From Poseidonocella sedimentorum (GTDB lineage Bacteria; Pseudomonadota; Alphaproteobacteria; Rhodobacterales; Rhodobacteraceae), in contig NZ_FOYI01000001.1 of assembly GCF_900116005.1 (NCBI RefSeq), positions 1 through 64,000 on the forward strand: a stretch of 64,000 bases of DNA, in the 5' to 3' direction. Shown here piece after piece: positions 2,082 through 49,272 of the stretch. The translations under genes and the position numbers were made by a program. The notes beneath the pieces were generated by a model that did no database searches, was not told where the DNA came from, and was given only the letters and a program-made list of their open reading frames with translations. Numbering within the stretch: the first letter of the stretch is position 1; every line of letters starts with the position of its first letter.

Positions 2082-2930
2082 TCAGAAGTCGCTGTCGTCT
2101 GTGGCAGTATCGGGTTCTTTAAGGTTGCTCCCGAGTGAGCCGTTTTTGTTGTCGTCCAACTCATCGGCGAAATAGAGCCACTCAGCCATCGACCGCAGTT
2201 TGATTGCCCCGACTGCAAACTGGATCGCCTCGGCGGCAATTTCCTCGTTCTGCCAAGGCATCTTCCCGAGGGCCTCGCGAATTCTCGTTGCGATCTTCTC
2301 TATCTGTGCTCGTCGCACTGCATCGGAGATATCGGGACGGTCTTCGCGTTCTAGCAAGTCATCCTGACGATCTCGCCACCATTGCCCGGTCGCTTCATTT
2401 TCCGCTGCGACCATCATTTTCCATCTCTGTCGCATGTTGTCTACGGAACGGGGTCCGACGCCGGAGGCTCCGGCAATCTCCCTAACCTTGAGACGTTCGC
2501 CGGGAAGTCTAACCAATCTCCAAGCGGCGTCCATTCTCTCGCTTTTGGACAGCGGTAATCGTTCACGTGAATTCGCCTTAACGGCAGCCAACATGGCCAC
2601 CGACCTGTCCCCTTGTAGTATGGCTGCGGGCACGCTCTCTCGGGGCTTCGCGGTGGCGTAGGCAGCAAGTCGGTGATGGCCGTCGAGAAGGACGATGCGA
2701 TCTGTCGTCTGGCCGGTAACATCAACCTCCTGCCAGACAAGAACGGGGTCGAGTTCTCCCAGATTGCGGAGCGTTTGGGTCAGTCCGCGAACGTGACCCT
2801 TATCGGTGGCGATTTGCCGAAATAGGAACTCCGGGTCGCTGGTGATCTCTCTGGGCTGGAGCATCCGTAAAGTGGTGCGGGTCTGGCTCATATCGGGCTG
2901 GGCACCGCTGGGCGTGGTTGAGTTCTGCAT
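2082..2930 (-). CDS. ParB/Srx-domain protein
   Basis: The protein is 282 aa from ATG 2930. It contains a ParB N-terminal-like nuclease/CTPase fold with the signature VLLDGHHRLAAYA, followed by a helix-turn-helix-like stretch (VREIAGASGVGPRSVDNMRQ) and an acidic C-terminus. In the element it could act in partition, regulation or nicking; there is no ParA beside it. An upstream in-frame start at 3005 exists, but it would require translating through a terminator-like hairpin. ATG 2930 has AGAAGAGAAA just before it and is preferred. It is transcribed in the same direction as the resolvase upstream and the RNase HI downstream. Confidence 0.72.
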   Translation of the reverse strand: MQNSTTPSGAQPDMSQTRTTLRMLQPREITSDPEFLFRQIATDKGHVRGLTQTLRNLGELDPVLVWQEVDVTGQTTDRIVLLDGHHRLAAYATAKPRESVPAAILQGDRSVAMLAAVKANSRERLPLSKSERMDAAWRLVRLPGERLKVREIAGASGVGPRSVDNMRQRWKMMVAAENEATGQWWRDRQDDLLEREDRPDISDAVRRAQIEKIATRIREALGKMPWQNEEIAAEAIQFAVGAIKLRSMAEWLYFADELDDNKNGSLGSNLKEPDTATDDSDF

Positions 2931-2951
2931 GTCGTTTCTCTTCTGTATTAA

Positions 2952-2990
2952 AAATCGCAAAGCCCCCGGCGGGCAGGGCGAGGGCCTTTC
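2952..2990 (-). terminator. hairpin with U-run just upstream of the ParB-like start (possible attenuator)
   Basis: On the minus strand an imperfect GC-rich stem made from AAAGGCCC and GGGGGCTTT is followed by GCGATTTTTAA. It ends about 22 nt before ATG 2930. It could terminate the resolvase transcript or attenuate readthrough into the ParB-like gene. Confidence 0.5.
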
Positions 2991-3151
2991 ATTGGTTGAA
3001 GTCATTTGTTGGTTGGCGGCGGCAGTCTTCGCCTTCGTCGAGTGAAGAAAATCATCGAGGTGCCGGGAGGTTCGCCGTGTACGTGGGTCGTTCCCCTTGC
3101 CGGTTCGAGCTCTATTCTTCTAGTATGTGCGAAAATGGGCCTATGACCTGT

Positions 3152-3787
3152 TTACATTCCCCAGCGGAAGAGCTTCGCTTCGGCTTCGTTTAGGTCATGG
3201 CGGATGCGAAGGACCGTCTGACGGCTAAGTCCTGACGCGCGCGCGACTTCGGACGTTCCCGCGCCAGTACCAGTCATATCCCGCACTAGGTTCAACTGTT
3301 GTCGGTCGTAGGACGGCTTGCGGCCCCGGTAAGCCTCGGGTTTTTTGGCTTTAGCGTGCTCGATGCCTGCCCGTTGAGCCTCCTTAGTCGCTTCGGCTTG
3401 GGCCTGCGCTGTGGCAGCCATGAAGGCAATGAGCGCATCCCGGACGGCCTGTTGGGTGGGGTCGGTCGTTGTTCCGTCAAAGGTCATCGAGTTGATCACT
3501 GTTTTAATGGTGACCCCTGTTCGGATGAAGTGCCGGATAGTGTCTGTCACGTCCTGATAGTTACGCCCCAACCGGTCTACCCAGCGAACTACGAGAGTGT
3601 CCCCTTGGCGGAGCTTGTCGTAAAGGCGACGGCCTTCTGGCCGTTCTGCCAGCACGGTCGAGAGGCCAGACTGCCCACGGTCCGACACAACTTCGTCAAT
3701 CGGAATGCCTGCTTTGCGAGCTTGATCGACCTGGTGGTCGAGTGTCTGATCAGCGGTGGAAACGCGGGCATAGAAAATCGTGGTCAT
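3152..3787 (-). CDS. small serine recombinase (resolvase/invertase family)
   Basis: 211 aa, complete. The N-terminal catalytic domain opens TIFYARVSTADQ with R8 and nucleophile S10. The later VRWVDRLGRN supplies the conserved active-site arginines. The C-terminal domain has the helix-turn-helix GTSEVARASGLSRQTVLRIR. It resembles Tn3-type resolvases and DNA invertases that act on short sites near their own gene. Its length is slightly above the usual 180-200 aa. The region 3788-4012 upstream contains short direct repeats that could be its operator or crossover site. Confidence 0.88.
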   Translation of the reverse strand: MTTIFYARVSTADQTLDHQVDQARKAGIPIDEVVSDRGQSGLSTVLAERPEGRRLYDKLRQGDTLVVRWVDRLGRNYQDVTDTIRHFIRTGVTIKTVINSMTFDGTTTDPTQQAVRDALIAFMAATAQAQAEATKEAQRAGIEHAKAKKPEAYRGRKPSYDRQQLNLVRDMTGTGAGTSEVARASGLSRQTVLRIRHDLNEAEAKLFRWGM

Positions 3788-4726: not shown

Positions 4727-5971
4727 GTGCCTCGTCCAAAGTCCAGCAACCCACGAACGCGCGTCACAAACATCAGACTTACTGAAGAAGAGCGTTCAGA
4801 GTTCATGAAGGCGGCATCTGCTTGCGGCTTCGATAGCATAAGTGAGTATGTCCGCCACCTGCATTTTCGCAATCAAAGCTCACCGCCTCCAGGGACAAAC
4901 AATGACTTTAAGAAAAAATTCCCAGCCAAAACTGTAAGAAAGTTCTATGAAGCTGAGTATGGGAAAATTCTTTGGGGTGACTCACGAGCTTACGCATTGA
5001 ACATTGCCGAACCTGCCAGCGTAGACTTAATAGTAACCAGTCCACCATTTGGACTTGTTAGAAAAAAAAGCTACGGAAATGAGGACGCCGATAAGTATTG
5101 CGATTGGTTTCGGCCCTTTGCCGAAGGTTTTCACCGGATACTCAAGGATAGTGGCAGTCTTGTAGTAGACATCGGTGGAGCATGGGTCCCGGGCCAGCCA
5201 ACTCGAAGCCTATATCACTTCAAGCTTCTCGTCATGTTAGTCGAGGAATTTGGTTTTCACCTTTGTCAGGAACATTACTGGTGGAATCCTTCCAAACTAC
5301 CCACGCCTGCAGAATGGGTTAATATTCGTCGAGTTCGCGTCAAAGACGCTGTCAACAGCATTTGGTGGCTCTCGAAAACGCCATTTCCCAAAGCAAACAA
5401 TAAGCGCATCCTTCAACCTTACAGCAAGTCCATGGAAAGCCTGCTAAAAAATGGATACAAGGCGAAGCTCCGACCATCAGGACATGATATCTCGACGAAG
5501 TTCAACCGTGACAACGGTGGGTCAGTTCCGCCAAACTTACTTGCGGTTGCGAACACGGAATCCAACGGGAGTTATCAAGCTCATTGTAGAAACGAAAATA
5601 TTCCAATTCACCCCGCAAGATTCCCAAGCCAACTCCCTGAGTATTTTATCCGCTTTCTCACAAATCCTGGTGATCTGGTGGTGGACCCGTTTGGCGGCTC
5701 ATGCGTAACTGGAGTAGTTGCAGAAAACCTTAAAAGGCGCTGGGTTTGTGTAGAGATGTCTGAAGAGTATCTTTTGGGTGCAAAGGGTCGCTTTGTGCCA
5801 CAACTTCAACCGCTTCTAAGGGACAGTAAAATGTCTTATCAGATTCCGGCACCCTGCTCGCAAACTGTGGATGAGAACGAAATAAAGCTGTTTGAAGACG
5901 GAGGCAGGAAGCGGCCCACAAAACGCTCAAAGGAAAAGATAGACTCCGCGTCGCAAGAAAATGATGCGTGA
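4727..5971 (+). CDS. PvuII-like N4-cytosine DNA methyltransferase with N-terminal ribbon-helix-helix domain
   Basis: 414 aa. Residues 11-48 form a MobC/RHH-like segment (RVTNIRLTEEERSEF, then SISEYVRHL). The rest is a beta-class methylase: catalytic motif IV TSPPF at 104-108 and the SAM-binding motif VDPFGGSCVTG near 319-329 at the C-terminal end. The TSPPF signature and the flanking text (WWNPSKLPTPAEWVN, RPSGHDISTKFNRDNGGS, HPARFP) closely follow M.PvuII as I remember it, so methylation of a CAGCTG-like site is a reasonable guess. The start is GTG 4727 with TAGGAG upstream. It is the first gene of the operon, and the RHH domain may let it regulate its own promoter. Confidence 0.85.
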   Translation: MPRPKSSNPRTRVTNIRLTEEERSEFMKAASACGFDSISEYVRHLHFRNQSSPPPGTNNDFKKKFPAKTVRKFYEAEYGKILWGDSRAYALNIAEPASVDLIVTSPPFGLVRKKSYGNEDADKYCDWFRPFAEGFHRILKDSGSLVVDIGGAWVPGQPTRSLYHFKLLVMLVEEFGFHLCQEHYWWNPSKLPTPAEWVNIRRVRVKDAVNSIWWLSKTPFPKANNKRILQPYSKSMESLLKNGYKAKLRPSGHDISTKFNRDNGGSVPPNLLAVANTESNGSYQAHCRNENIPIHPARFPSQLPEYFIRFLTNPGDLVVDPFGGSCVTGVVAENLKRRWVCVEMSEEYLLGAKGRFVPQLQPLLRDSKMSYQIPAPCSQTVDENEIKLFEDGGRKRPTKRSKEKIDSASQENDA

Positions 5972-6018
5972 TTGCTTAGATTTTGGCGAGTTCCTGTCGG
6001 GGATAGGCCGTTTCAAAA

Positions 6019-6567
6019 ATGAATAGATCTGCCCAAAAACTGACTCCCTTTGAACTACACAGCGCCTTTCTCGAGCCGCTTGTAGATCTTGTGGTCACGC
6101 ACTCTGACTGCAACAAAAAACCGTTGCTTATCGACGGCATGTTACCGCTTCCGAAGCGTCTCAGAGTCTACCTTTTCAATGTAACAAGCCCACCGGGTGG
6201 TCGAACGGTCGGTGAACATAAGGTTCAGCTAATTGTCCCAGGGCAAAGCCGGGGGCAACGAGGCAACTTTGACCGTAGCGAGAACCGTCTAGTCCTTCTT
6301 GGCGGCTTCTGCCCAGAAGAGAAGGTCTTTGTTCTGTGGGACGCTGACCTTTATTATGATTTCTCTTGGTCACGGAACGTGCAGGCAAATGCTGAAACTG
6401 TGTTTCGTGCGGCTGCAGGTAGAATAGTAGAGCAGGAGCGGGTCTTGCGGCCCAGCACCGGCAGAACAGTGCGAGAGACACTTATAGCTTGCCCAACTCC
6501 GCGTCTCTTGGAGGCCATTGAAAAGAGGGTTCAAATTCGCCGACGTAGGCTCATTGGAGAAGAGTAG
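6019..6567 (+). CDS. methylase-associated protein, possible restriction nuclease
   Basis: 182 aa. The core reads RVYLFNVTSPPGGRTVGEHK, then an aromatic/acidic stretch (VFVLWDADLYYDFSWSRN) and a basic C-terminus. I recall similar proteins beside methylases, annotated as methylase-associated or with McrB-N-like domains. The EHK preceded by G could be the E-x-K half of a PD-(D/E)xK site, but this is unproven. It lies 47 nt after the methylase and just before the helicase. A tiny frame (5961-6026) bridges the methylase stop and this start and may couple translation. Confidence 0.6.
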   Translation: MNRSAQKLTPFELHSAFLEPLVDLVVTHSDCNKKPLLIDGMLPLPKRLRVYLFNVTSPPGGRTVGEHKVQLIVPGQSRGQRGNFDRSENRLVLLGGFCPEEKVFVLWDADLYYDFSWSRNVQANAETVFRAAAGRIVEQERVLRPSTGRTVRETLIACPTPRLLEAIEKRVQIRRRRLIGEE

Positions 6568-25987: not shown

Positions 25988-26181
25988 GTCCGTCCTGCTG
26001 ATGGCGTTTCAGAGCGGTGTGATATCAAGGCGCGCGGGGCGGAACAAGGTGCTGCGGTGCGCGGGGCGGGCGCTCAAATTTTGGGCGCCGCTGCCCGCTG
26101 CGCGCCCGAGGCCCCCCGCGCTGCCGCTCTCCGGCGTTGACAGGTGCGCTTTCGCTCGGGCTGAAATGGTGGTGCAGGGCG

Positions 26182-26280
26182 CTTAGGGTTCCGTCGCCGC
26201 ATGGCGAGACTGGTCCGAGAAGCGTCACCCGCCCGGCAAATTCCGGGTGGGCACACGGCGGGCCAAAATCCCGGGAGACT
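26182..26280 (+). promoter_or_regulatory. guanidine-I (ykkC) riboswitch
   Basis: The conserved ykkC blocks occur in order: TAGGGTTCCG, then ACTGGTCCGAGA, then ACACGGCGGG and AAAATCCCGGGAGA after a CCCGGCAAATTCCGGG stem. These are the residues that build the guanidine pocket. A second hairpin (GTTCCGCC 26317-26324 with GGCGGAAC 26352-26359) lies between the aptamer and the ATG at 26385 and may be the expression platform; no T run follows it. Confidence 0.93.
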
Positions 26281-26384
26281 ATACTGCGCAGGTTTCGTCC
26301 GCGCCCAGATCTCCTTGTTCCGCCAGCGGGCCGCAGACCATCGGATCCTTGGGCGGAACGCAACGACCGACACGGGGGACAGAC

Positions 26385-27467
26385 ATGTTTCGCACCACAT
26401 CTTCGCCGGCCCGGGCCCTGAAGGCATCCGCGCTCGCATTCACCATCGCTGCTGCCGCCATGAGCCCGGCCACCGCGCAGGAAAAGACCGAGTTCAAGCT
26501 GGCCTGGTCGATCTACGTCGGCTGGATGCCCTGGGGCTATCTCGACGAAAGCGGCATCATGGACAAATGGGCCGAGAAATACGGCATCACTGTCGATATC
26601 GTCCAGATCAACGACTACGTGGAATCGATCAACCAATACACCGCAGGCGCCTTCGACGGCGTCTCGGCCACCAACATGGACACGCTCTCGATCCCCTCGG
26701 GCGGCGGGGTGGACACCACCGCGCTGATCGTGGGCGACTATTCCAACGGCAATGACGCGGTGATCCTCAAGGGCGAGGGCGGGCTCGCCGATCTGGCCGG
26801 CAAGCCGGTCAACCTCGTGGAGCTTTCGGTCTCGCATTACCTTCTGGCGCGCGGGCTCGACAGCGTGGGGCTCTCCGAGCGCGATCTGGACGGGGTGATC
26901 AACACCTCCGACGCCGACATGATCGCCGCCTACGCCACCTCGGACGTCGAGGCCGTGGTGACGTGGAACCCGCTGGTGTCGGAAATCCTCGGCGCCAACC
27001 CGGATGCCAACAACGTCTTCGACAGCTCGATGATTCCCGGCGAGATCCTCGACCTCATGGTGGTCAACACCGAAACGCTCGCCGCCAACCCCGATTTCGG
27101 CAAGGCCGTTGCGGGCGCGTGGTACGAGGTCATGGGCCTGATGGCGGCGGGCGATGAGGTCGCGCTGACGGCAATGGCCGAGGCCTCGGGCACCGATCTC
27201 GACGGCTACACATCCCAGCTCGCCGCGACCGAGATGTTCTATGATCCCGCCGATGCGGTGGCGCAGGCGGCCTCGGAGGACCTGCCCGCGACGATGACCG
27301 AGGTGGCCGAGTTCCTCTATGACAAGGGCATCCTCGGGGAGGGCGCGCCAAGCGCCGATTTCGTCGGCGTGGAATATCCCGACGGCTCGGTCACGGGCGA
27401 CGAAAACAACGTCAGGTTCCGCTTCGACACCACCTACATGCAGATGGCCGCCGACGGCGCGCTCTGA
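26385..27467 (+). CDS. ABC transporter substrate-binding protein, probably for guanidine
   Basis: 360 aa with a signal peptide ending SPATAQ. It is a NitT/TauT-type periplasmic protein (KLAWSIYVGWMPWGYLDESG, DYVESINQYTAGAFDG), of the subgroup named putative urea transport in urea/guanidine-carboxylase regions. It directly follows a guanidine-I riboswitch, so guanidine or guanylated compounds are the expected ligand. It is the first gene of the operon. Confidence 0.88.
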   Translation: MFRTTSSPARALKASALAFTIAAAAMSPATAQEKTEFKLAWSIYVGWMPWGYLDESGIMDKWAEKYGITVDIVQINDYVESINQYTAGAFDGVSATNMDTLSIPSGGGVDTTALIVGDYSNGNDAVILKGEGGLADLAGKPVNLVELSVSHYLLARGLDSVGLSERDLDGVINTSDADMIAAYATSDVEAVVTWNPLVSEILGANPDANNVFDSSMIPGEILDLMVVNTETLAANPDFGKAVAGAWYEVMGLMAAGDEVALTAMAEASGTDLDGYTSQLAATEMFYDPADAVAQAASEDLPATMTEVAEFLYDKGILGEGAPSADFVGVEYPDGSVTGDENNVRFRFDTTYMQMAADGAL

Positions 27468-27535
27468 GGCGTGACAGCTTTCGGGGCGCGGGCGGATCGT
27501 CGCGCGCCCCGGGGCGCAGAGGGAAGGGGGCAGAG

Positions 27536-28348
27536 ATGCGATTGATCAACCGCAAACCGGGGCGCACGCTCGGGGCCGCGCTGGCCGCGCTGCCCTTCGT
27601 GCTGGTGCTCATCGGCTATTCGATCGGCTCGGAAATCCGCCTTTCCGCCAATCCGGCCGACAAGCTCCTGCCCGCGCTGTCGACCATCGGCGAGACCGCC
27701 CAGCGACTCTTTACCCAAGGCGATCGGCGCACCGGCGAGATCCTTCTTTGGAAGGACACCGTCGCCTCGCTCACCCGTCTGCTCGGCGGGGTCGGGATCG
27801 CGGCGGGCCTGTCGCTGGTGATCGGCATGGCGATCGGCCTTCTGCCCTACGCCCGCCGCTCGCTCTCGGGCTTCGTCGCGGTGCTCTCGATGGTGCCGCC
27901 GCTGGCGCTTCTGCCGATCCTCTTCATCGTTTTCGGGCTCGGCGAGGTCTCCAAGATCGTGCTGATCGTGATCGGGATCACGCCCTTCATGACCCGCGAT
28001 CTTGCCCAACGCGTGCTCGACATCCCGCGCGAACAGATCGTCAAGGCCCAGACGCTCGGCGCCTCCTCGCTCGTCATCGCGCTCCGCGTGGCCCTGCCGC
28101 AGATCCTGCCGCGGCTCATCGCCAACATCCGCCTCTCGCTCGGCTCGGCCTGGCTCTTTCTCATCGCCGCCGAGGCGGTCGCCTCCGATGTCGGGCTCGG
28201 CTACCGCATCTTCCTCGTGCGGCGCTACCTCGCGATGGATGTGATCTTGACCTACGTCATCTGGATCACGCTGCTGGCCTTCGTGATCGACTGGCTCTTG
28301 CGCCAGCTCTCGCGGCGGGCCTTCCCCTGGATGGAGGCGGGGCTATGA
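27536..28348 (+). CDS. ABC transporter permease of the guanidine operon
   Basis: 270 aa with about six membrane helices and a BPD-transport-1 domain. The EAA-like loop (REQIVKAQTLGASSLVIALRVALP) that docks the ATPase is clear. ATGA overlap with the next gene. It belongs to the NitT/TauT permease group. Confidence 0.92.
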   Translation: MRLINRKPGRTLGAALAALPFVLVLIGYSIGSEIRLSANPADKLLPALSTIGETAQRLFTQGDRRTGEILLWKDTVASLTRLLGGVGIAAGLSLVIGMAIGLLPYARRSLSGFVAVLSMVPPLALLPILFIVFGLGEVSKIVLIVIGITPFMTRDLAQRVLDIPREQIVKAQTLGASSLVIALRVALPQILPRLIANIRLSLGSAWLFLIAAEAVASDVGLGYRIFLVRRYLAMDVILTYVIWITLLAFVIDWLLRQLSRRAFPWMEAGL

Positions 28349-29112
28349 GTTTTGTTTCCGTCACCGATGTCTGGCAATCCTACGGCGGGCGGCCGATCCT
28401 CGAGCGCGTCAACGTCGAGGTGGAGGAGGGCGCCTTCATCTCCATCGTCGGCGCCTCGGGCTGCGGCAAGTCGACCTTCCTGCGGATGCTGCTCGCCGAA
28501 GAGCTGCCCAGCCGCGGCGCGATCCGCATCGACGGCGGCGCCCCGGCGGTGGAGCCCAACCCCGAGCGCGGCGTGGTCTTCCAGCGCTATTCCGTCTTCC
28601 CGCATCTCACCGTGCGCGAGAACCTTCTGGCGGGCGAGGGATTCCGGACAGCCCTCGGCCGGCTCGGCGGCGGCGCCCGTCGCGAGGCGCTCGCGCGGGC
28701 CGAGGAGACGCTTGCGCGGATCGGGCTGAACCACGTTGCCGATCAGTACCCGGCGAGCCTCTCGGGCGGGATGCAGCAGCGCCTCGCCATCGGTCAGGCC
28801 CTCGCCGCCAAGCCCCGCGTCCTGCTGCTCGACGAGCCCTTCGGCGCGCTCGACCCCGGCACCCGCCTCCAGATGCACGGCTTTCTCACCGAGCTGCGCG
28901 CCGAGACGCGGATGACGGTCTTCATGGTCTCCCACGATCTTGAAGAGGCCTTCAAGCTGGGCGATCGGGTCCTCGTTTTCGACAAGCCCCGCTGGGACCC
29001 GGACGATCCGGGCCTTTATGGCGCGACCATCACCTATGATTTCGATGCCTCCGACGGCGGCATGCCGTTCCAACGCATCCTCGACCGATACCCCTCGCTC
29101 GGCCCCGGCTGA
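28345..29112 (+). CDS. ABC transporter ATP-binding protein of the guanidine operon
   Basis: 255 aa. Walker A GASGCGKST, signature LSGGMQQRL, Walker B VLLLDEPFGALD and the H-loop VSHD are all present. The Walker-proximal region matches nitrate/taurine-type ATPases. A C-terminal extension after the H-loop ends DRYPSLGPG. Coupled to the permease by ATGA. Confidence 0.93.
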   Translation: MSFVSVTDVWQSYGGRPILERVNVEVEEGAFISIVGASGCGKSTFLRMLLAEELPSRGAIRIDGGAPAVEPNPERGVVFQRYSVFPHLTVRENLLAGEGFRTALGRLGGGARREALARAEETLARIGLNHVADQYPASLSGGMQQRLAIGQALAAKPRVLLLDEPFGALDPGTRLQMHGFLTELRAETRMTVFMVSHDLEEAFKLGDRVLVFDKPRWDPDDPGLYGATITYDFDASDGGMPFQRILDRYPSLGPG

Positions 29113-29211
29113 GCGAGCCGCCAGCGCGCGCCCCCGGGCCCCGCGCGCACCGGCATCACCAAGGCCCGGAAGCCCGCCCCGCAAGGGGACACGATCAATC
29201 AGGAGACAGGC

Positions 29212-30465
29212 ATGTTTTCCGAAGCCGTAAAACGACGCTCCCACCATCCCGCCGATGCCCGCGCCGCCCACGAGGCGCGCACGCGCCGCGCCCACCATCC
29301 GGACCTGACAAAGCTCGCGGGCTGGCGGGCGCTCCAGAAGGAGGGCGAGCTGCCCGAAGGCCGCTGGGACGAGGAGCGCCGCTGGGCGCTGCGCATGGGG
29401 CTCACCGGCGCCGAGAGCATCGACGACAAGTCGATCCCGACCTTCGCGCGCGGCGAGCTGCCCCATTACGCGGGCATCAACACCTTCCTCAAGGCGCCCT
29501 ATGCCGAGGATGTGCTGGAGGTCGCCAACTACGACGCGACCGTGCTCGGCATCCCCTTCGACGGCGGCACCACCTACCGCCCCGGCACGCGCTTCGGGCC
29601 GCAAGGCGTGCGCAAGATCTCGGCGCTCTACACGCCCTACAACTACGAGATCGGCGTCGATCTGCGCGAACAGATGACGCTCTGCGACGCGGGCGATGTC
29701 TTCACCATCCCCGCCAATCTCGAAAAGAGCTTCGATCAGATCAGCCGCGCCGTCTCCCATGTCTTCTCCTCGGGCTCGCTCCCGATCATGATCGGCGGCG
29801 ATCACTCGATCGGCTTTCCTTGCGTGCGCGGCATCGCCGAATGCACCTCCAAGAAGATCGGCATCGTCCATTTCGACCGCCACGCCGACATCCAGGAAAA
29901 AGACCTCGACGAGCGGATGCACACGACGCCCTGGTTCCACGCCACCAACATGCCCAACGTGTCGCCCAAGAACCTCGTGCAAGTCGGCATCGGCGGCTGG
30001 CAGGTCCCGCGCGAGGCGGTCAAGGTCGCGCGCGAGCGCCAGACCAACATCATCACCATGGGCGACATGGAGAAGATGGGCATCGACAAGACCGCCGAGA
30101 TGGCGCTGGAGATGGCCTGGGACGGGGTCGACATGGTCTACATGTCCTTCGATATCGACAGCATCGACTGCGGGTTTGTCCCCGGCACAGGCTGGCCCGA
30201 GCCGGGCGGGTTCCTGCCGCGCGAGGCGCTGGCGCTGGCCTCCAAGGTCGCGGCGCAGGGGATCTGCGGGATGGAGCTGGTCGAAGTGTCGCCGCCCTAC
30301 GACACCTCCGACATCACTGCGCTGATGGGCACGCGGGTGATCGTTGACGTGCTCGGCGCGATGGTGTCCAACGGGACATTGGGCAAGCACAAGGCTCATA
30401 TCGACAAGCCGGTGACGATCCCGCACGGCGACTTCGAAGGAAAGCGGTGGTCCAATGCCACATGA
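29212..30465 (+). CDS. gdmH: ureohydrolase, probable Ni-dependent guanidine hydrolase
   Basis: 417 aa, longer than common agmatinases through an N-terminal extension of about 90 residues, as in the cyanobacterial guanidine hydrolase. The metal ligands are visible: GGDHS (H198), FDRHAD (D222, H224, D226) and SFDIDSID (D314, D316). ATG 29212 has AGGAGACAG before it. In this family the arginase fold hydrolyses guanidine to urea and ammonia with nickel. The riboswitch and transporter upstream point to guanidine, not agmatine. Agmatinase or guanidinobutyrase remains possible. Confidence 0.85.
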   Translation: MFSEAVKRRSHHPADARAAHEARTRRAHHPDLTKLAGWRALQKEGELPEGRWDEERRWALRMGLTGAESIDDKSIPTFARGELPHYAGINTFLKAPYAEDVLEVANYDATVLGIPFDGGTTYRPGTRFGPQGVRKISALYTPYNYEIGVDLREQMTLCDAGDVFTIPANLEKSFDQISRAVSHVFSSGSLPIMIGGDHSIGFPCVRGIAECTSKKIGIVHFDRHADIQEKDLDERMHTTPWFHATNMPNVSPKNLVQVGIGGWQVPREAVKVARERQTNIITMGDMEKMGIDKTAEMALEMAWDGVDMVYMSFDIDSIDCGFVPGTGWPEPGGFLPREALALASKVAAQGICGMELVEVSPPYDTSDITALMGTRVIVDVLGAMVSNGTLGKHKAHIDKPVTIPHGDFEGKRWSNAT

Positions 30466-30919
30466 TCACGGGCCCTCGGGGCATCATCATCACGGGCATG
30501 ACCATCCCCCGCATCACGGCCCCGGCCACAACCACGCCGACGGCGATCATCTGCATTCGCACATGCACCACGCCGACGAGGCCGCCGACCTGCAGGTGCT
30601 CGCCACCCAGTTCATCGACGGCTTCGTGCAGGCGCGGGACAAGACGAGCTACCTCAAGCTCGCCGGCGTGCCTTTCGAGCGGCCCGGCGCGGGCGGCGCA
30701 ACCGCGCTGAAGCTCGTCGACGTGGAGCTCAAGACCGACTGGCAGGTGGGCACCGCGTCCCCCTCCTTCGGCTCGCGCGAGCTCAGTTATCTGCCGTTCC
30801 CCGGCGAAATGGTCCGGGAACGCACCAACATGTCGCTTGTCTATGTGTCGATGGAGGAAAAATCGACGCTCGACATCCGCGACTTTCTCTCTCAACGCAA
30901 GAAGGACCTCGACACATGA
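30455..30919 (+). CDS. histidine-rich accessory protein of the guanidine operon
   Basis: 154 aa. The first about 45 residues hold many His with Asp and Gly (HDHGPSGHHHHGHDHPPHHG), a typical metal store. The folded rest reads FIDGFVQARDKTSYLKLAGVPF and GTASPSFGSRELSYLPFPGEM; I recognise no family. It overlaps the hydrolase by 11 nt, so it is coupled to it. Likely it supplies or stores nickel for the hydrolase, taking the place of the HypA/HypB-like GhaA/GhaB, none of which is seen here. Confidence 0.75.
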   Translation: MPHDHGPSGHHHHGHDHPPHHGPGHNHADGDHLHSHMHHADEAADLQVLATQFIDGFVQARDKTSYLKLAGVPFERPGAGGATALKLVDVELKTDWQVGTASPSFGSRELSYLPFPGEMVRERTNMSLVYVSMEEKSTLDIRDFLSQRKKDLDT

Positions 30920-31077
30920 CACGCATCCTCGCCGCCACCCTCATCCCGGCTCTCGCCGCTGCGCCCGCCCTTGCCCACAGCGGCCCGCACCTGCACCCCC
31001 ACGGCATCGACGCCGCCTGGATCGTGGCCGCCGTGGCCCTCGCTGCGCTCGCCGCCGTGGTCTGGTTCCGCCGCTGA
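30916..31077 (+). CDS. small exported His-containing membrane protein
   Basis: 53 aa: a signal-like N-terminus ending AAPALAHSG, then HPHG and one hydrophobic helix (AAWIVAAVALAALAAVVW) with FRR at the end. Starts in an ATGA overlap with the preceding gene. It may take part in metal handling at the membrane, by context only. Confidence 0.65.
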   Translation: MTRILAATLIPALAAAPALAHSGPHLHPHGIDAAWIVAAVALAALAAVVWFRR

Positions 31078-42229: not shown

Positions 42230-42280
42230 CGGAAAATGATCGATCATTTTCCGTCTCGTTTTCTGATCGATCAGAAAACG
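42230..42280. repeat. two adjacent perfect 24-bp palindromes centred on GATCGATC
   Basis: Palindrome 1 (42230-42253) is CGGAAAATGATC followed by its exact complement. Palindrome 2 (42257-42280) is CGTTTTCTGATC followed by its exact complement. The second covers the ureG stop codon. Both can form long hairpins on either strand and may end urease transcription. Confidence 0.75.
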
Positions 42281-42912
42281 GCGGCCGTGGGTGCGGGCAG
42301 TTCTAGTCCTCCGATCTGATGCAGGAGGGAGAGGATCGTAGGGGTGCCGGTTCCGTGACGCAGGGCGGCGAAGACGAAGGGGCGGCCGTCGCGCATGCGG
42401 GTGGCGTCCCGGTCCATCACTTCGAGCGAAGCGCCCACGTGGGGGGCGAGGTCGGTCTTGTTGATCACGAGGATGTCGGAGCGGGTGATGGCAGGTCCGC
42501 CCTTGCGGGGGATCTCCTCGCCTGCGGCCACGTCGATGACGTAGATCGTCAGGTCCGCGAGTTCAGGGCTGAAGGTGGCCGAGAGATTGTCGCCGCCGCT
42601 CTCGATCAGCACTGCGTCGAGGTCCGGGTGGCGCCGTTCCATTTCGGCCACCGCCGCGAGGTTGATCGAGGCGTCTTCGCGGATCGCCGTGTGTGGGCAG
42701 CCGCCGGTTTCCACGCCGATCACCCGGCTCTTGGGCAGGATCTGCATCCGCATCAGGGCCTCGGCGTCTTCCTGGGTGTAGATGTCGTTGGTGATGACCC
42801 CGATCGAGAGGACTGGGTGCAGCGCGCGGGCGAGCTCGGCGGTCAGTGTGGTCTTGCCGGCGCCGACGGGGCCGCCGATACCGATCCGCAGGGGGCCGTT
42901 CATTTGTGTCAT
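42271..42912 (-). CDS. ureG: urease accessory GTPase UreG
   Basis: 213 aa from ATG 42912 in an ATGA overlap with ureF. It is a SIMIBI GTPase that drives nickel delivery to urease with UreE/F/D. P-loop [10 protein letters not shown], the metal motif in [13 protein letters not shown] (CPH), [15 protein letters not shown] and the base-recognition NKTD are complete. Confidence 0.97.
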
Positions 42913-43571
42913 GTGCGAAAGAGCCTCGTGGCTTGGGTTTCGTGGCGCATGGCGGCGATATCGGCCAGCCACGTGGTGCTGGAGAGGGCGTCGTCCTGTG
43001 CGCATTCGGCGGCGTCGGCCTGGGTTTCGATCAGCGGCACTAGGGCGGTGAGCACGCGTTGCCCGTCAGTCTGGCCGAGCGGCACCAGACGAAGTGCGGC
43101 GGAGGTGAGGTTGGCGGCGAAGGCCTGGAGCGCCATGCGCAGGGTCAGCCGCAGCGGCAAGCCTTCGCGTGCGGCGGCGGTGCCGAGGGCGACGGGGTAG
43201 GGCTGCGCCGCCTTCGGGTGGTCCCAGACGGCGGCGGTCGTCCGGGCGAAGGCCTCACCCTGCTGATCGGCTTCGAAACGGCGTTCGGCGGAGGCGGCGA
43301 AGGCGCGGGCGCGCTCGGAGATGTCGTGCCGCGCGGCGTCGTTTTCTGCGCGGTAGGCGCCCGCGAGGAAGATCGCGTCGGACCATGCGCTGCCGTGGGT
43401 GAGGAGGTCTTCGAGCCAGGCTTGGAGATCATCGGCGGAGGCGATGGCCCCGTCGGCGATGGCGCGTTCCAGCCCATGCGAATAGGCGAAGGCCCCGACC
43501 GGGAAAGCGGGGGAGAGCCATTGCGCGAGGAGCAGCGCCGCGCGCTCTGGGGGCATCGGGGCCGGGCTCAT
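42909..43571 (-). CDS. ureF: urease accessory protein UreF
   Basis: 220 aa, all-helical. [18 protein letters not shown] at the start and the Gly-rich middle are typical. It bridges UreD and UreG in the maturation complex. Coupled to ureE by overlap at the start. Confidence 0.94.
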
Positions 43572-44077
43572 TCGGGGGCCGCCTCGGTGTCGTGGCCGTG
43601 GGCGTGGCCGTGATCATGCGTGTGGCCGTGATCATGTCCGTGGGTGCGGCCGTGGCCATAGGCGCCGCCCTCGGGCGTGAAGGGGGCGGTGATCTCGGTC
43701 ACCTCGGCGCCGATGCGCTCAAGCATGTCGCGGATCACGTGGTCGCGGCGGATCAGAAGGCGGGCGGGCTCGATCTGGCACGGGGTGTGGCGGTTGCCGA
43801 TGTGCCAGGCGATGCGCGGCAGGTCGGCGCCGGTCACCGCAAGAAGCGGCTCGGGCCGGGCGAGGATGGCGATCTCGCCGCCGCCTTCGAGCAGGAGAAC
43901 GCCGCCGTGGTCGAGGGAGGTGGTCTTGGGAAGATCCACGAGCAGGCGCCGCCCGTCGTCGAGCGGCAGCACGCGGCGGCGCAAAAAGCGCCCTTCGTAG
44001 TCGAGCGCCACCGTTCCTTGCGGGGCCGTGTCGTGGGGGTGGCCGTGATAGCCGCGGGCAATCAGGTCTTGGGTCAT
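43568..44077 (-). CDS. ureE: urease nickel metallochaperone UreE
   Basis: 169 aa from ATG 44077. The UreE N-domain (LDYEGRFLRRRVLPLDDGRRL) and the metal-binding C-domain (AWHIGNRHTPCQIE) are followed by a tail of alternating His with Gly, Asp and Thr that can store several nickel ions. Confidence 0.94.
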   Translation of the reverse strand: MTQDLIARGYHGHPHDTAPQGTVALDYEGRFLRRRVLPLDDGRRLLVDLPKTTSLDHGGVLLLEGGGEIAILARPEPLLAVTGADLPRIAWHIGNRHTPCQIEPARLLIRRDHVIRDMLERIGAEVTEITAPFTPEGGAYGHGRTHGHDHGHTHDHGHAHGHDTEAAPE

Positions 44078-44219
44078 CTCTGCCCCTCGCTTTGATGCGT
44101 CGGGGACAAGGGGGAACCCCTGCGGCGCCCGAGCGGCGCGGCGATCTCGCCGCACGCGCTCATAGGGCGGACCTTCGCCTCAGCCGGGCCCGGACAGGCC
44201 GGGCGCGGGGATGGCGGGG

Positions 44220-44447
44220 TCAGATGTAGTAGGAGGTGCCGAGCACGCGATGCGGGATCTCCTCGCGGGTCATGCCGAGCTTGGCCAACTCGCTGTCGGT
44301 CATCGCTTCGAGCGCCTGAACTTCGCGGACGTTGCGGTTGGCTTCGCCGATCAGGACGAGAAAATTGCCCACCGCGGCGGCGCAGCGTTGGACGCCCATC
44401 ACGAGCGACGTGACCGGAGACGTGGATTTTTGTGCGATAGTCGCCAT
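44220..44447 (-). CDS. DUF1127 domain protein
   Basis: 75 aa from ATG 44447. The C-terminal domain VQALEAMTDSELAKLGMTREEIPHRV is a DUF1127 motif. Small proteins of this family bind RNA or regulate metabolism in some alphaproteobacteria. Placed inside the urease cluster. Confidence 0.85.
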   Translation of the reverse strand: MATIAQKSTSPVTSLVMGVQRCAAAVGNFLVLIGEANRNVREVQALEAMTDSELAKLGMTREEIPHRVLGTSYYI

Positions 44448-44648
44448 TGGAAACCTCTGGGTAATGGTCAGGGTCCCCTCCCTGTCGCCCAGTGTAGGCC
44501 GGGATTGCGGGCGGGACCATGCGCGTTCGCGCAACCCCGGGTTTCGCCAGACGCAAGGCGGCACCGGGAGCGATGCGATTTGGCGCGGTGAAGGGGTATG
44601 GCCTGCCCGGGCGCAGCGCCAACAGGCGCGTGCGCGACGGGCAGGGAC

Positions 44649-44861
44649 TCAGAAGGCCAGACGGTGCTCGACGAAGACCCGCTGGGCAATGCCGTTGCGC
44701 TTGAGGCCGCGCGCGGCGAGCTGGGTGTCGGACAGTTTGCGAAGGTCTTCCACCTGCCGGAACTGCTCTCCGGCGACGCTTTGGCGCGCCAGGCCGCGCA
44801 TCACGCCGTCGAACGCACGGGTGAGGCTGCTGAGCAGGGAGGTGGTGAGGAACGGTTTCAT
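44649..44861 (-). CDS. DUF1127 domain protein, second copy
   Basis: 70 aa. FRQVEDLRKLSDTQLAARGLKRNGIAQRV is a DUF1127 core; it is only distantly similar to the copy at 44220-44447. The gap of 236 bp to ureC and 201 bp between the two copies suggest separate promoters. Confidence 0.82.
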   Translation of the reverse strand: MKPFLTTSLLSSLTRAFDGVMRGLARQSVAGEQFRQVEDLRKLSDTQLAARGLKRNGIAQRVFVEHRLAF

Positions 44862-45097
44862 GAGTTTTCTCGAACTTGAGGTTACGTTTCACTGTGGTTT
44901 TGGTGGCGCAACAGGCGCCTGCGGGAGTGAGATAGGGGCGCGGGGCCCCGTCTACCACTGCCAGCGCGGCAACCCCGCCATGCGCGGGCCGCAAGGCTGC
45001 GGCGTGGCGGCTGGCGCCTCTGGAAGGGATATGCGGCGCGCGCGGTGGTGAAAACGCGGTCGTGGTCACGGAAACGATCCCTCCTGTCGGGGGCAGC

Positions 45098-46846
<1,749 letters not shown>

Positions 46847-46857
46847 GGAGGGTCTCC

Positions 46858-47088
46858 TTATTCGCCGAATTCTTTGTGAAGTATGTCAAGAAGTTGTGCG
46901 GCACTTTCCGCATCAAACTGGATGGACTGACTTACTTTGCCTGGAAACTCTCGGTCGGCTCGACCGTAGGTATCAATTTGAAGGAGCTTTTGCCCGTCTT
47001 TCTCGAAGATCGCATAGGTACATACGACTTCGGAATGAAGGTTTGGACGTTCGAAACTACGTTCTTCAAGTTTTTTGATCAATGCCAT
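46858..47088 (-). CDS. small hypothetical protein in the urease cluster
   Basis: 76 aa: [20 protein letters not shown], then [20 protein letters not shown] and [21 protein letters not shown] family of similar small proteins occurs as orphans in alphaproteobacteria, sometimes mislabelled as methionyl-tRNA formyltransferase; the function is unknown. Its DNA is AT-richer than the flanking urease genes, which suggests a recent insertion between ureC and ureB. Confidence 0.72.
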
Positions 47089-47117
47089 CGCTATCTCGCT
47101 CCAATTGAATTTGAACC

Positions 47118-47201
47118 ACCCGGCGGCACGCCGGGTAGCGCCCGACCCGCCCCCACCGGGGCGGGCGCTTCTCGCCCACCCCGACGGGTCGGGCGCTGCC
47201 C
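47118..47201. repeat. GC-rich nested hairpins
   Basis: ACCCGGCG-GCA-CGCCGGGT (47118-47136) is a perfect 8-bp hairpin. Overlapping it, GGGTAGCGCCCGACCCG (47133-47149) pairs with CGGGTCGGGCGCTGCCC (47185-47201), 16 of 17 bp plus one wobble. It lies in the 229-bp gap between two small genes of the urease cluster and may be a processing site, terminator or insertion scar. Confidence 0.6.
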
Positions 47202-47317
47202 TTTGATCTGAAGTCGGACGGGTGGAAAGCCGGTGTTGTCGTGACCAATCAGTTTTGTGGTCTGACGACCGGCAAGCGACGGATCGCCCCCAGTCTTCAT
47301 GTCCACCGAATGACTTC

Positions 47318-47647
47318 TCACGCTGGCCCCCGTTTCGCCAGTCGGCGGTAGTTGGAGCGGGTGCGGGCGCGGATCGGGCGGACGGCGGCTTTGGCGACCT
47401 TCTCGGGCGGCTGGCCGGAGAGGATCGCGCGGGTCGCGGCATGGGCCGCGGCGGAGTAGCCTTCCTGTTTCTCGACCACCATCCGGCGGTACTCCGATCG
47501 CGGGATCGACCACATCATCGCCATGCCGGCCATGCGCATGCCCATGACCATCTGGGCCTCGGCGAGCATGAGCCAGTATTGCTGGGCGGCGGAGGCCCAG
47601 GCCAGCGGCTGGGCGCTGGAGGGCAGGGTGGGTTTGCAGATGTTCAT
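47318..47647 (-). CDS. conserved hypothetical protein between ureB and the small insert
   Basis: 109 aa. A hydrophobic, Met- and Ala-rich N-terminal half (QQYWLMLAEAQMVMGMRMAG) and a basic C-terminus (RPIRARTRSNYRRLAKR). I recall a gene of this type between ureB and ureC in Rhodobacterales, of unknown function. Confidence 0.68.
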   Translation of the reverse strand: MNICKPTLPSSAQPLAWASAAQQYWLMLAEAQMVMGMRMAGMAMMWSIPRSEYRRMVVEKQEGYSAAAHAATRAILSGQPPEKVAKAAVRPIRARTRSNYRRLAKRGPA

Positions 47648-47664
47648 CGAGCGTGTGCCTCGTG

Positions 47665-47970
47665 TCAGAGATCGCCCATTACGGACGTGTTGAAGCCGAA
47701 GACGCGCCGTGCGCCGCCGTAGGGGATGAGTTGCACCTCGCGGGTCTGGCCCGGCTCGAAGCGCACGGCCGTGCCCGCGGCGATGTCGAGCCGTTGGCCA
47801 TGGGCGGCTTTGCGGTCGAAATCGAGCGCGGGGTTGGTCTCGGCGAAGTGATAGTGGCTGCCGACCTGCACCGGGCGGTCGCCGGTGTTGGCGACGGTGA
47901 GCGTGATCGCCGGGCGCCCGGCGTTGAGCTCAAGGGTGCCTTCGGCGGGCAGCAGCTCTCCGGGGATCAT
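47665..47970 (-). CDS. ureB: urease subunit beta
   Basis: 101 aa. [19 protein letters not shown] and [17 protein letters not shown] are signature segments. Structural subunit of the UreABC heterotrimer. Confidence 0.97.
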
Positions 47971-48027
47971 GCGGCTGGTCCTGTCATCGGGGGGGTGCGG
48001 GTCATGGGGCTCTCCTGCGGGGTTGGA

Positions 48028-48330
48028 TCAGCGGATCGGGTCGTGTACGGTCACGAGCTTGGTGCCATCGGGGAAGGTCGCCTCGACCTGCACCTCGTGG
48101 ATCATCTCGGGGACGCCGTCCATGCATTGCGCGCGGGTGACGACCTCGGCCCCCGCTTCCATCATGTCGGCCACCGAGCGCCCGTCGCGCGCGCCTTCGA
48201 CCACCGCATCGGTGATGAGCGCGATGGCTTCGGGGTGGTTGAGTTTCACGCCGCGCGCCAGCCGTTTACGGGCGACCTCGGCGGCCATCGCGATCAGCAG
48301 CTTGTCTTTTTCTCTCGGGGTCAGTTGCAT
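48028..48330 (-). CDS. ureA: urease subunit gamma
   Basis: 100 aa. [20 protein letters not shown] and [20 protein letters not shown] are typical. Complete. Confidence 0.98.
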
Positions 48331-48393
48331 TCAGGTCATCCAGCTCAGGTATCGTGTTGTCTCGAACGTGCGGGGCGGGGGCTGTGTTCCAGC

Positions 48394-49272
48394 TCAGGTC
48401 ATCCAACTTCGGGGGATCGGGCCGTCCGCCAGCCGCGCAAGGAGCGGCAGGAGCAACCGGCGCAGGGCCGCGCCATCGGGCGCGAGCAGGCGCAGGGCGA
48501 GCGTGTCCGGGGCGATGCAGCTGGCCCCGGCGGTGCGGGGCAGGCCCGCGCGCAAGACGGGCAGCAGCGCCTCGGCGCCGGGGGCGGTATAGACCAGCGC
48601 GGCCATGGCCCGGGCGCCGCCGCCGGTGGCGGGCCGATCCAGCAGCGCCTCGGCATCGCCATCGATCCGCGCGGCATCGAGATAGAGCGGCTGCCCATCG
48701 CGCAGGATCTCCACCCGGTCATGCAAGCGCAGGTCCGTTACCCGCTCGCCCATGGCGCGGCGGCCAAAGAGCAGGGACTCGACCATGAGGAACCGCGCGT
48801 CGCCCGCGAGGTCCGCCGACAGGGCGCGCGAGAGCCCCGCACGGTTGAACAGGATCGTCTCCTGCGGCAGCCAGTTGAGCGTGGCGCCCGGCGCGGCGCT
48901 GAGCGTGGTCCGCAGCGTGCCGGTCTCGCCCGGCTGGGCCGCATAGATCCGCTCGGCGGCCTGGGTGGTGATCGAGAGCCGCGCGCCGGGACCGGCATGG
49001 GCGGTGATGGCGAGGCGGTCGCCGCCGGTGATGCCGCCCGCGGAATTGATCAGCACCGCCTCCAGCCCGCGCGCGGGGTCGGGATGGCGGGGGAACAGCG
49101 CCTTGAGGCAGCCTTGCGGGCGGAGCCCGTCGAGCACGCTGCGCGCGCCGTGCCGCTTGGCCGAAAGCCGGATCGAGCCCACCGCGCGCGGCTGGGCGGG
49201 GACGCGCGGCGCGGCTGCGGGTCGAGACCCCGCCGCCGGTTTCGCCAGATCGCCCGTCACATCGAGCCCCAT
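48394..49272 (-). CDS. ureD: urease accessory protein UreD/UreH
   Basis: 292 aa. VLINSAGGITGGDRLAI and AERIYAAQPGE are family motifs. It docks on apo-urease and accepts UreF/UreG. First gene of the minus-strand urease cluster. About 35 extra N-terminal residues are rich in Ala and Pro. Confidence 0.93.
   Translation of the reverse strand: MGLDVTGDLAKPAAGSRPAAAPRVPAQPRAVGSIRLSAKRHGARSVLDGLRPQGCLKALFPRHPDPARGLEAVLINSAGGITGGDRLAITAHAGPGARLSITTQAAERIYAAQPGETGTLRTTLSAAPGATLNWLPQETILFNRAGLSRALSADLAGDARFLMVESLLFGRRAMGERVTDLRLHDRVEILRDGQPLYLDAARIDGDAEALLDRPATGGGARAMAALVYTAPGAEALLPVLRAGLPRTAGASCIAPDTLALRLLAPDGAALRRLLLPLLARLADGPIPRSWMT

Follow-up and report, generated by a model that had tools for sequence, protein, structure and literature searches.

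The guanidinase GdmH of Synechocystis is a nickel-dependent enzyme that, according to PMC12186494, is encoded in one operon with two accessory nickel-delivery proteins that are required for its activity. As stated in PMC8390497, such genes often share an operon with hypA, hypB, and further genes. HypA/HypB-type genes are not required by all guanidinases, as comammox bacteria do without them; PMC11410670 regards it as unexpected that nickel chaperones are missing near the comammox riboswitch and describes the mechanism of loading as unclear. Here, we describe a guanidine operon in a stretch of 64,000 nucleotides of Poseidonocella sedimentorum (contig NZ_FOYI01000001.1; the full stretch is referred to as the window, and positions are those of the window). 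The operon comprises a Guanidine-I riboswitch, an ATP-binding cassette (ABC) importer, and a GdmH-type guanidinase and carries no HypA/HypB-type genes beside gdmH. Instead of the HypA/HypB-type proteins GhaA and GhaB of Synechocystis PCC 6803, it encodes a histidine-rich protein, which we term HISR, and a small protein of 53 residues. We lean towards the interpretation that HISR is dedicated to the alphaproteobacterial guanidinase, acts in its nickel delivery or maturation, and takes the place of the HypA/HypB-type helpers. That the operon as such serves the sensing, uptake, and hydrolysis of guanidine is, taken alone, highly probable. Its features are the following.

26172..26279, + strand: Guanidine-I (ykkC) riboswitch aptamer (RF00442, Rfam cmscan, 84.7 bits, gathering score 63, E 1.1e-13)
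26385..27467, + strand: ABC importer with guanidine as the probable substrate, substrate-binding protein (TIGR03427, 521 bits, cut-off 333.9)
27536..28348, + strand: permease of the ABC importer (PF00528, 76 bits)
28345..29112, + strand: ATPase of the ABC importer (PF00005, 113 bits)
29212..30465, + strand: GdmH-type guanidinase, a ureohydrolase (PF00491; 7esr/7oi1 548 bits, 9fek 530 bits; specificity residues kept)
29293..29301, + strand: HHP motif (residues 28-30 of GdmH, within its N-terminal extension), a putative segment for docking or metal
30455..30919, + strand: HISR, 154 residues, with a conserved core behind a histidine-rich N-terminus; candidate for nickel delivery to GdmH
30916..31077, + strand: open reading frame (ORF) of 53 residues (by eye: signal sequence, histidine cluster, and one hydrophobic segment)

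The importer genes, gdmH, HISR, and the 53-residue ORF thus all follow the aptamer on its 3' side and on the same strand. gdmH overlaps the HISR ORF by 11 bases, and the start of the 53-residue ORF overlaps the HISR stop by 4 bases. A first-pass annotation of this DNA had set the system at 26182-31077; the end of this interval coincides with the stop of the 53-residue ORF, while its start falls 10 bases inside the aptamer. The 154- and 53-residue ORFs fill the end of the interval, and neither of them was named there, nor was the missing HypA/HypB pair. In the host genome, the HypA model found no match and the HypB model none over its cut-off; the best HypB row (61 bits against 121) is UreG of a urease cluster located in the window.

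Co-occurrence of HISR and gdmH

The aptamer, the genes and their order, the co-occurrence of HISR with gdmH, and the lack of HypA/HypB genes are directly observed. Among 385 alphaproteobacterial genomes, 13 gave a HISR match, and gdmH was likewise found in 13 at E <= 1e-80. Eleven of these 13 carry a strong gdmH (72-100% identity), and HISR lies directly downstream in each of them. Of 398 genomes from the phylum, seven contain gdmH and the same seven contain HISR; five of them were new, and HISR is downstream in 5/5. Finally, 32 of 331 genomes of the order contain gdmH, 29 of which were new, with HISR downstream in 28/29. Taken together, HISR directly follows gdmH in 44 of the 45 alphaproteobacterial genomes with a strong gdmH (11, 5, and 29 from the three sets); in the remaining genome, the contig ends inside gdmH. 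gdmH was also found in 11 plasmid records. HISR follows it in all seven alphaproteobacterial ones (two from Rhodobacterales, five from Sinorhizobium fredii), where the HISR of S. fredii NGR234, whose operon lies on pNGR234b, was detected by a hidden Markov model (HMM); the other four records are from Actinomycetota, and HISR was not found in the two of them that were examined. Counting genomes and plasmid records, which may overlap, HISR follows gdmH in 51/52 alphaproteobacterial loci. In Limimaricola variabilis, the same two genes come after gdmH, and both are annotated as 'hypothetical protein'.

The first 16 genomes with gdmH and HISR represent 11 families by database labels. For 15 of the 16 loci, one locus at a contig edge being left out, pairs of flanks beyond the operon were compared for up to 1.9 kb on the upstream side and up to 2.5 kb on the downstream side. 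On each side, a shared protein was found in 0/100 between-family pairs. Since between-family flanks share nothing, the pairing of HISR with gdmH does not hitch-hike on general synteny, and the recurrence of the operon gene order amid unrelated flanks shows that this order is not due to chance. In genome G460, gdmH and HISR come immediately after the riboswitch, and the fetched 11 kb contain no match to an ABC protein, which argues that HISR belongs with the enzyme and not with the importer.

HISR apart from gdmH was seen in two of the 385 genomes and in none of the 398, and both cases are remnants. In G125 (L039, 4604-4861), a truncated HISR core stands alone, and gdmH was found neither in the fetched 11 kb nor elsewhere in the genome at E <= 1e-80. 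In G365 (L043, 5019-5933), the riboswitch and the first part of the binding protein run into a piece of HISR; the permease, the ATPase, and gdmH are gone. Outside Alphaproteobacteria, HISR was detected in 0/80 gdmH loci (the best 80 of at least 560, mostly from Nitrospira and Actinomycetota), which included flanks of up to 6 kb, in a search in which the local HISR profile recovered known members. It was also found in 0/50 of the whole genomes behind 50 of these loci; this search had no positive control of its own, the same kind of profile search having found members in the 398-genome set. Queries with alphaproteobacterial HypA gave nothing in the 80 loci, and those with HypB gave just weak matches near some of them, probably UreG.

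As a separate observation, the guanidine operon resides on large plasmids (L183, L184, L185, and L187-L190), and the five S. fredii plasmids are conjugative according to PLSDB. On the plasmid of Rubrobacter indicoceani (L186, 5941-13119), a gdmH-like gene is followed by a gene of the sodium:solute symporter family, a formamidase gene, and urease genes, and HISR is absent.

HISR as a candidate nickel-delivery factor

The HISR of the window has 17 histidines within its first 60 residues, followed by the conserved core, contains no cysteine, and matches no Pfam or NCBIfam family. Across members, the tail varies in length and is strongly histidine-rich in most of those examined. Known nickel helpers were considered as relatives and rejected. 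For HypA/GhaA, the PF01155 domain, which has a zinc site of paired cysteines, was absent in 16/16 members at E <= 1, and a profile comparison returned a probability of 0.4%; for the GTPases HypB/GhaB and UreG, PF02492 matched 0/16 members at E <= 1. Neither UreE_N nor UreE_C was among the Pfam matches of the 16 members, and the HISR profile aligned with UreE of the window in a single column, which is not a usable match. The weak rows that did appear were Zip (E 0.082) and ZrgA (E 0.63) in Pfam and PRK10019 (nickel/cobalt efflux, E 0.056) and UreE (E 0.78) in NCBIfam, each in 1/16 members, as well as a serine-rich NCBIfam family (E 0.43) in 2/16; they probably come from the histidine tail. Searches of PDB sequences gave nothing significant, the lowest E values being 0.13 with the single protein and 0.1 with the profile as the query.

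AlphaFold2 modeling with 16 sequences yielded a fairly confident core (block means of 73-97 from residue 41) behind a disordered tail, with a predicted order of two helices, strands, and a final helix, and a second model of the shortest member had the same order of elements (mean pLDDT 78.4 and 83.1, respectively). Foldseek returned no solved structure at E <= 0.001. The best VIA-align matches were weak (Z 2.7, rmsd 4.7, and 61 aligned residues for the first model; Z 2.5 for the second), and the COMM and tudor domains among these rows were not taken as relatives. No relative was found in the fold searches, and we do not claim that the fold is novel. Searches of the open-access literature (PMC) gave no recognized description of a histidine-rich gene after gdmH; the original GdmH paper (Funck et al. 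2022) and supplements lay outside this search and may note HISR.

In our preferred interpretation, HISR would bind nickel via its variable histidine-rich tail, while its conserved core would contact GdmH, perhaps at the HHP segment, and load the di-metal site, thereby playing the role that GhaA and GhaB have in Synechocystis. The HHP motif is present in 48/48 alphaproteobacterial GdmH loci (45 genomes and 3 plasmids), where it precedes the conserved RGELP by 52 or 54 residues; upstream of RGELP it occurs in 3/83 other loci, at distances of 51, 58, and 68 residues. Judged from this distribution, the segment may be a docking site of HISR. A second HHP lies in the N-terminal extension of GdmH in the window (29242-29250, residues 11-13), and the pair was seen in several other Rhodobacterales.

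The small protein after HISR may help nickel uptake, as would the HupE/UreJ permease that is encoded in its place in some other genomes. In G532 and in 5/5 S. fredii plasmids, HISR is immediately followed by a gene of the HupE/UreJ nickel permease family; the assignment is based on PF04955 for L146 (169 bits) and L185 (153 bits) and on tblastn for the others. In many Rhodobacterales, a short ORF similar to that of the window takes this place; with the same 4-base overlap, it was counted in 18/48 loci by a pattern that missed one looser case (L036) and took in a poor one (L037, 39 residues). None of the 10 short ORFs scanned, that of the window included, has a Pfam match over the cut-off; DUF6732 rows appeared for four of them (E 0.017-0.21, all below the cut-off). 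The 53-residue protein of the window is not a HupE/UreJ protein, as PF04955 does not match it and it merely holds the same place, and a row for an inovirus capsid (E 0.008, below the cut-off) was not believed.

Three other explanations for HISR were considered. The main one is that HISR is an accessory subunit or a stabilizer of the GdmH hexamer, its core being permanently bound and the histidine tail being secondary. Some members (L042, L040, and L041) have indeed retained the core with hardly any tail left, and the strict pairing with gdmH would equally be expected. However, no such partner is present in the solved guanidinases, which are homohexamers, as described for N. inopinata in PMC11410670, and neither the strongly histidine-rich tail of most members nor the nickel permease gene after HISR in six loci fits a structural role, so that we consider this explanation unlikely. 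Less probable still is that HISR is a store or buffer that limits free nickel without acting directly on GdmH. Helicobacter Hpn is a nickel store or buffer of this kind, and such a function would suit the poly-histidine tail of variable length and the nickel permease genes that adjoin HISR in some loci. A store, however, needs neither a conserved core nor an exclusive pairing with gdmH, which is broken merely by the two remnants described above, and the tail is almost absent in some members. Very improbable, finally, is that HISR serves another metal or step (zinc handling, regulation, or importer assembly) and is just a passenger of the operon: histidine-rich tails bind zinc and copper too and the weak Zip and ZrgA matches are metal proteins, yet HISR follows gdmH in the 51/52 alphaproteobacterial loci given above while other between-family flanks are unshared, and it stays there in G460, where no importer gene was seen.

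Several observations weigh against HISR as a nickel-delivery factor. The tail could bind another metal, and the nickel role is proposed from sequence and context, from which metal binding and the effect on GdmH are inferred. Some members have few histidines in their first 60 residues (1, 3, 4, or 5). HypA/HypB genes occur besides HISR in some of the first 16 genomes (HypA match in 5, HypB over the cut-off in 4), always on another contig than gdmH. A weaker match of the HypB model (61-85 bits) is present in 16/16 genomes; these matches are probably UreG, which was checked for that of the window alone. In the four genomes with HypB over the cut-off, HISR has 3, 4, 6, and 20 histidines in its first 60 residues, and the lowest count, 1, belongs to a genome without HypB; a link between histidine-poor HISR and the presence of HypB is not claimed, as the cases are too few. 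Nitrospira and Actinomycetota have guanidinases that do without HISR. The HHP motif could equally be a lineage trait without relation to HISR. For the related metformin hydrolase, PMC11271267 reports that co-expressing the chaperones made no significant difference in extracts of overexpressing cells; according to the same source, growth on metformin was abolished when the chaperones were knocked out.

Moreover, two distant alphaproteobacterial gdmH-like genes (G064 and G079), whose identity is 52-57% depending on the alignment, lie in genomes without HISR. They were not counted as GdmH because the protein of G079 (L047, ~5253-6422) has threonine at the position of the guanidinase specificity tryptophan and the gene of G064 (L046, ~2546-3310) is cut by the contig end before this position. 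They may represent a sister enzyme that acts on a different substrate. Both ureohydrolases have a histidine-rich insertion before the conserved IGIGGW.

HISR remains a concrete, testable candidate for the nickel loading of guanidinase in a large lineage. It would account for genes annotated as 'hypothetical protein' next to those labelled 'agmatinase family' and could serve as a co-expression partner for producing active guanidinase. A more far-reaching proposal is that HISR founds a class of nickel metallochaperones that is unrelated to HypA, HypB, UreE, and UreG and dedicated to a ureohydrolase, that it loads the guanidinase across Alphaproteobacteria via the HHP-bearing N-terminus of GdmH, and that a minimal histidine-bearing membrane peptide replaces HupE. 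This proposal is tentative, and we would put its chances at somewhat below even.

Riboswitch, guanidinase, and urease genes

The first-pass annotation had recognized the conserved ykkC blocks, a three-part ABC importer, and a ureohydrolase of the guanidine-hydrolase type, and all three were borne out. The aptamer match covers the full length of the model (positions 1-107) and is the single one in the 3.56-Mb host genome (99.86% complete); its conserved blocks are common to 16 other loci. The region 3' of the aptamer did not fold better than shuffled sequences, and the switching mode is therefore taken from the literature. Among the 16 loci of the first gdmH- and HISR-containing genomes, the riboswitch scored over the cut-off in 12 and weakly in L036 (41.1 bits). 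No aptamer was found at L037 and L044, though importer, gdmH, and HISR genes occur there, and it could not be assessed at L041, which begins at a contig edge. At L037, a UreG-like gene lies upstream of these genes. The binding protein scores over the curated cut-off of a model named 'putative urea ABC transporter substrate-binding protein'. It is reasonable to tie this 'urea' importer to guanidine, a link drawn from the operon and the riboswitch alone.

The best PDB sequence matches of the ureohydrolase are 7esr/7oi1 (E 9e-164) and 9fek (E 4e-158), followed at a distance by the next protein (E 6e-52, 180 bits). According to PMC11410670, 7oi1 is the guanidinase of Synechocystis and 9fek that of Nitrospira inopinata, in which Thr105, His222, Trp313, and Glu344 are named as possibly important for guanidine catalysis. 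These residues correspond to Thr121, His237, Trp328, and Glu358 in GdmH of the window and are identical in 12/12 aligned proteins. Judged by the match scores, the enzyme groups with the characterized guanidinases, and it is probably nickel-dependent. The His/Asp motifs GGDH, HFDRHxD, and SFDxDxxD, which we take to be metal ligands, are present.

A urease cluster lies about 11 kb downstream of the guanidine operon.

42271..49272, - strand: urease cluster outside the operon (ureG, ureF, ureE, ureC, ureB, ureA, ureD; Pfam: UreG/cobW, UreF, UreE, urease alpha, UreD)

ureB (47665-47970) and ureA (48028-48330) were recognized by eye. With this cluster at 42.3-49.3 kb on the opposite strand, urea formed by GdmH could be used, and it probably is. 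A match to the Rfam 5' ureB small RNA (46367-46654, + strand, 93.9 bits, cut-off 40) runs antisense to the presumed ureC (45098-46846, - strand) and may reflect just conserved urease coding sequence.

By analogy with the described systems, guanidine would bind the riboswitch and allow transcription, the ABC importer would carry guanidine into the cell, GdmH would convert it to urea and ammonium, and urease would free the remaining nitrogen. The ligand, the substrate, and the metal are inferred, as is every step of HISR action.

Comparison with described systems

Overall, the operon represents a variation on a system that is already known. The operon of Synechocystis PCC 6803 (Sll1077/GdmH) likewise combines a Guanidine-I riboswitch, an ABC importer, and a GdmH-type enzyme, and the connection of the importer with guanidine is already in print for this organism (PMC12186494). 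The riboswitch, importer, and enzyme reported here are thus a new member of the system described there, and the novelty lies in HISR. In the comammox bacterium N. inopinata, a guanidine-I riboswitch likewise controls a guanidinase that belongs to the same clade, with no known nickel chaperone in the account of PMC11410670. The locus differs from that of the window in having an APC permease instead of the ABC importer, and HISR was not found in the Nitrospira loci among the best 80 of at least 560.

The metformin hydrolase operon of Pseudomonas and Aminobacter, as presented in PMC11399263, also joins nickel-dependent ureohydrolases to linked nickel helpers, with HupE directly downstream. Its helpers, however, are HypA and HypB, and its enzyme has two subunits, which GdmH of the window matches with ~126-135 bits compared to 548 bits for guanidinase. 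HypB and UreE resemble HISR in that a variable histidine-rich tail is attached to a conserved domain and encoded beside a nickel enzyme, and UreE of the window has such a tail. In contrast, the core of HISR is unrelated to theirs by sequence.

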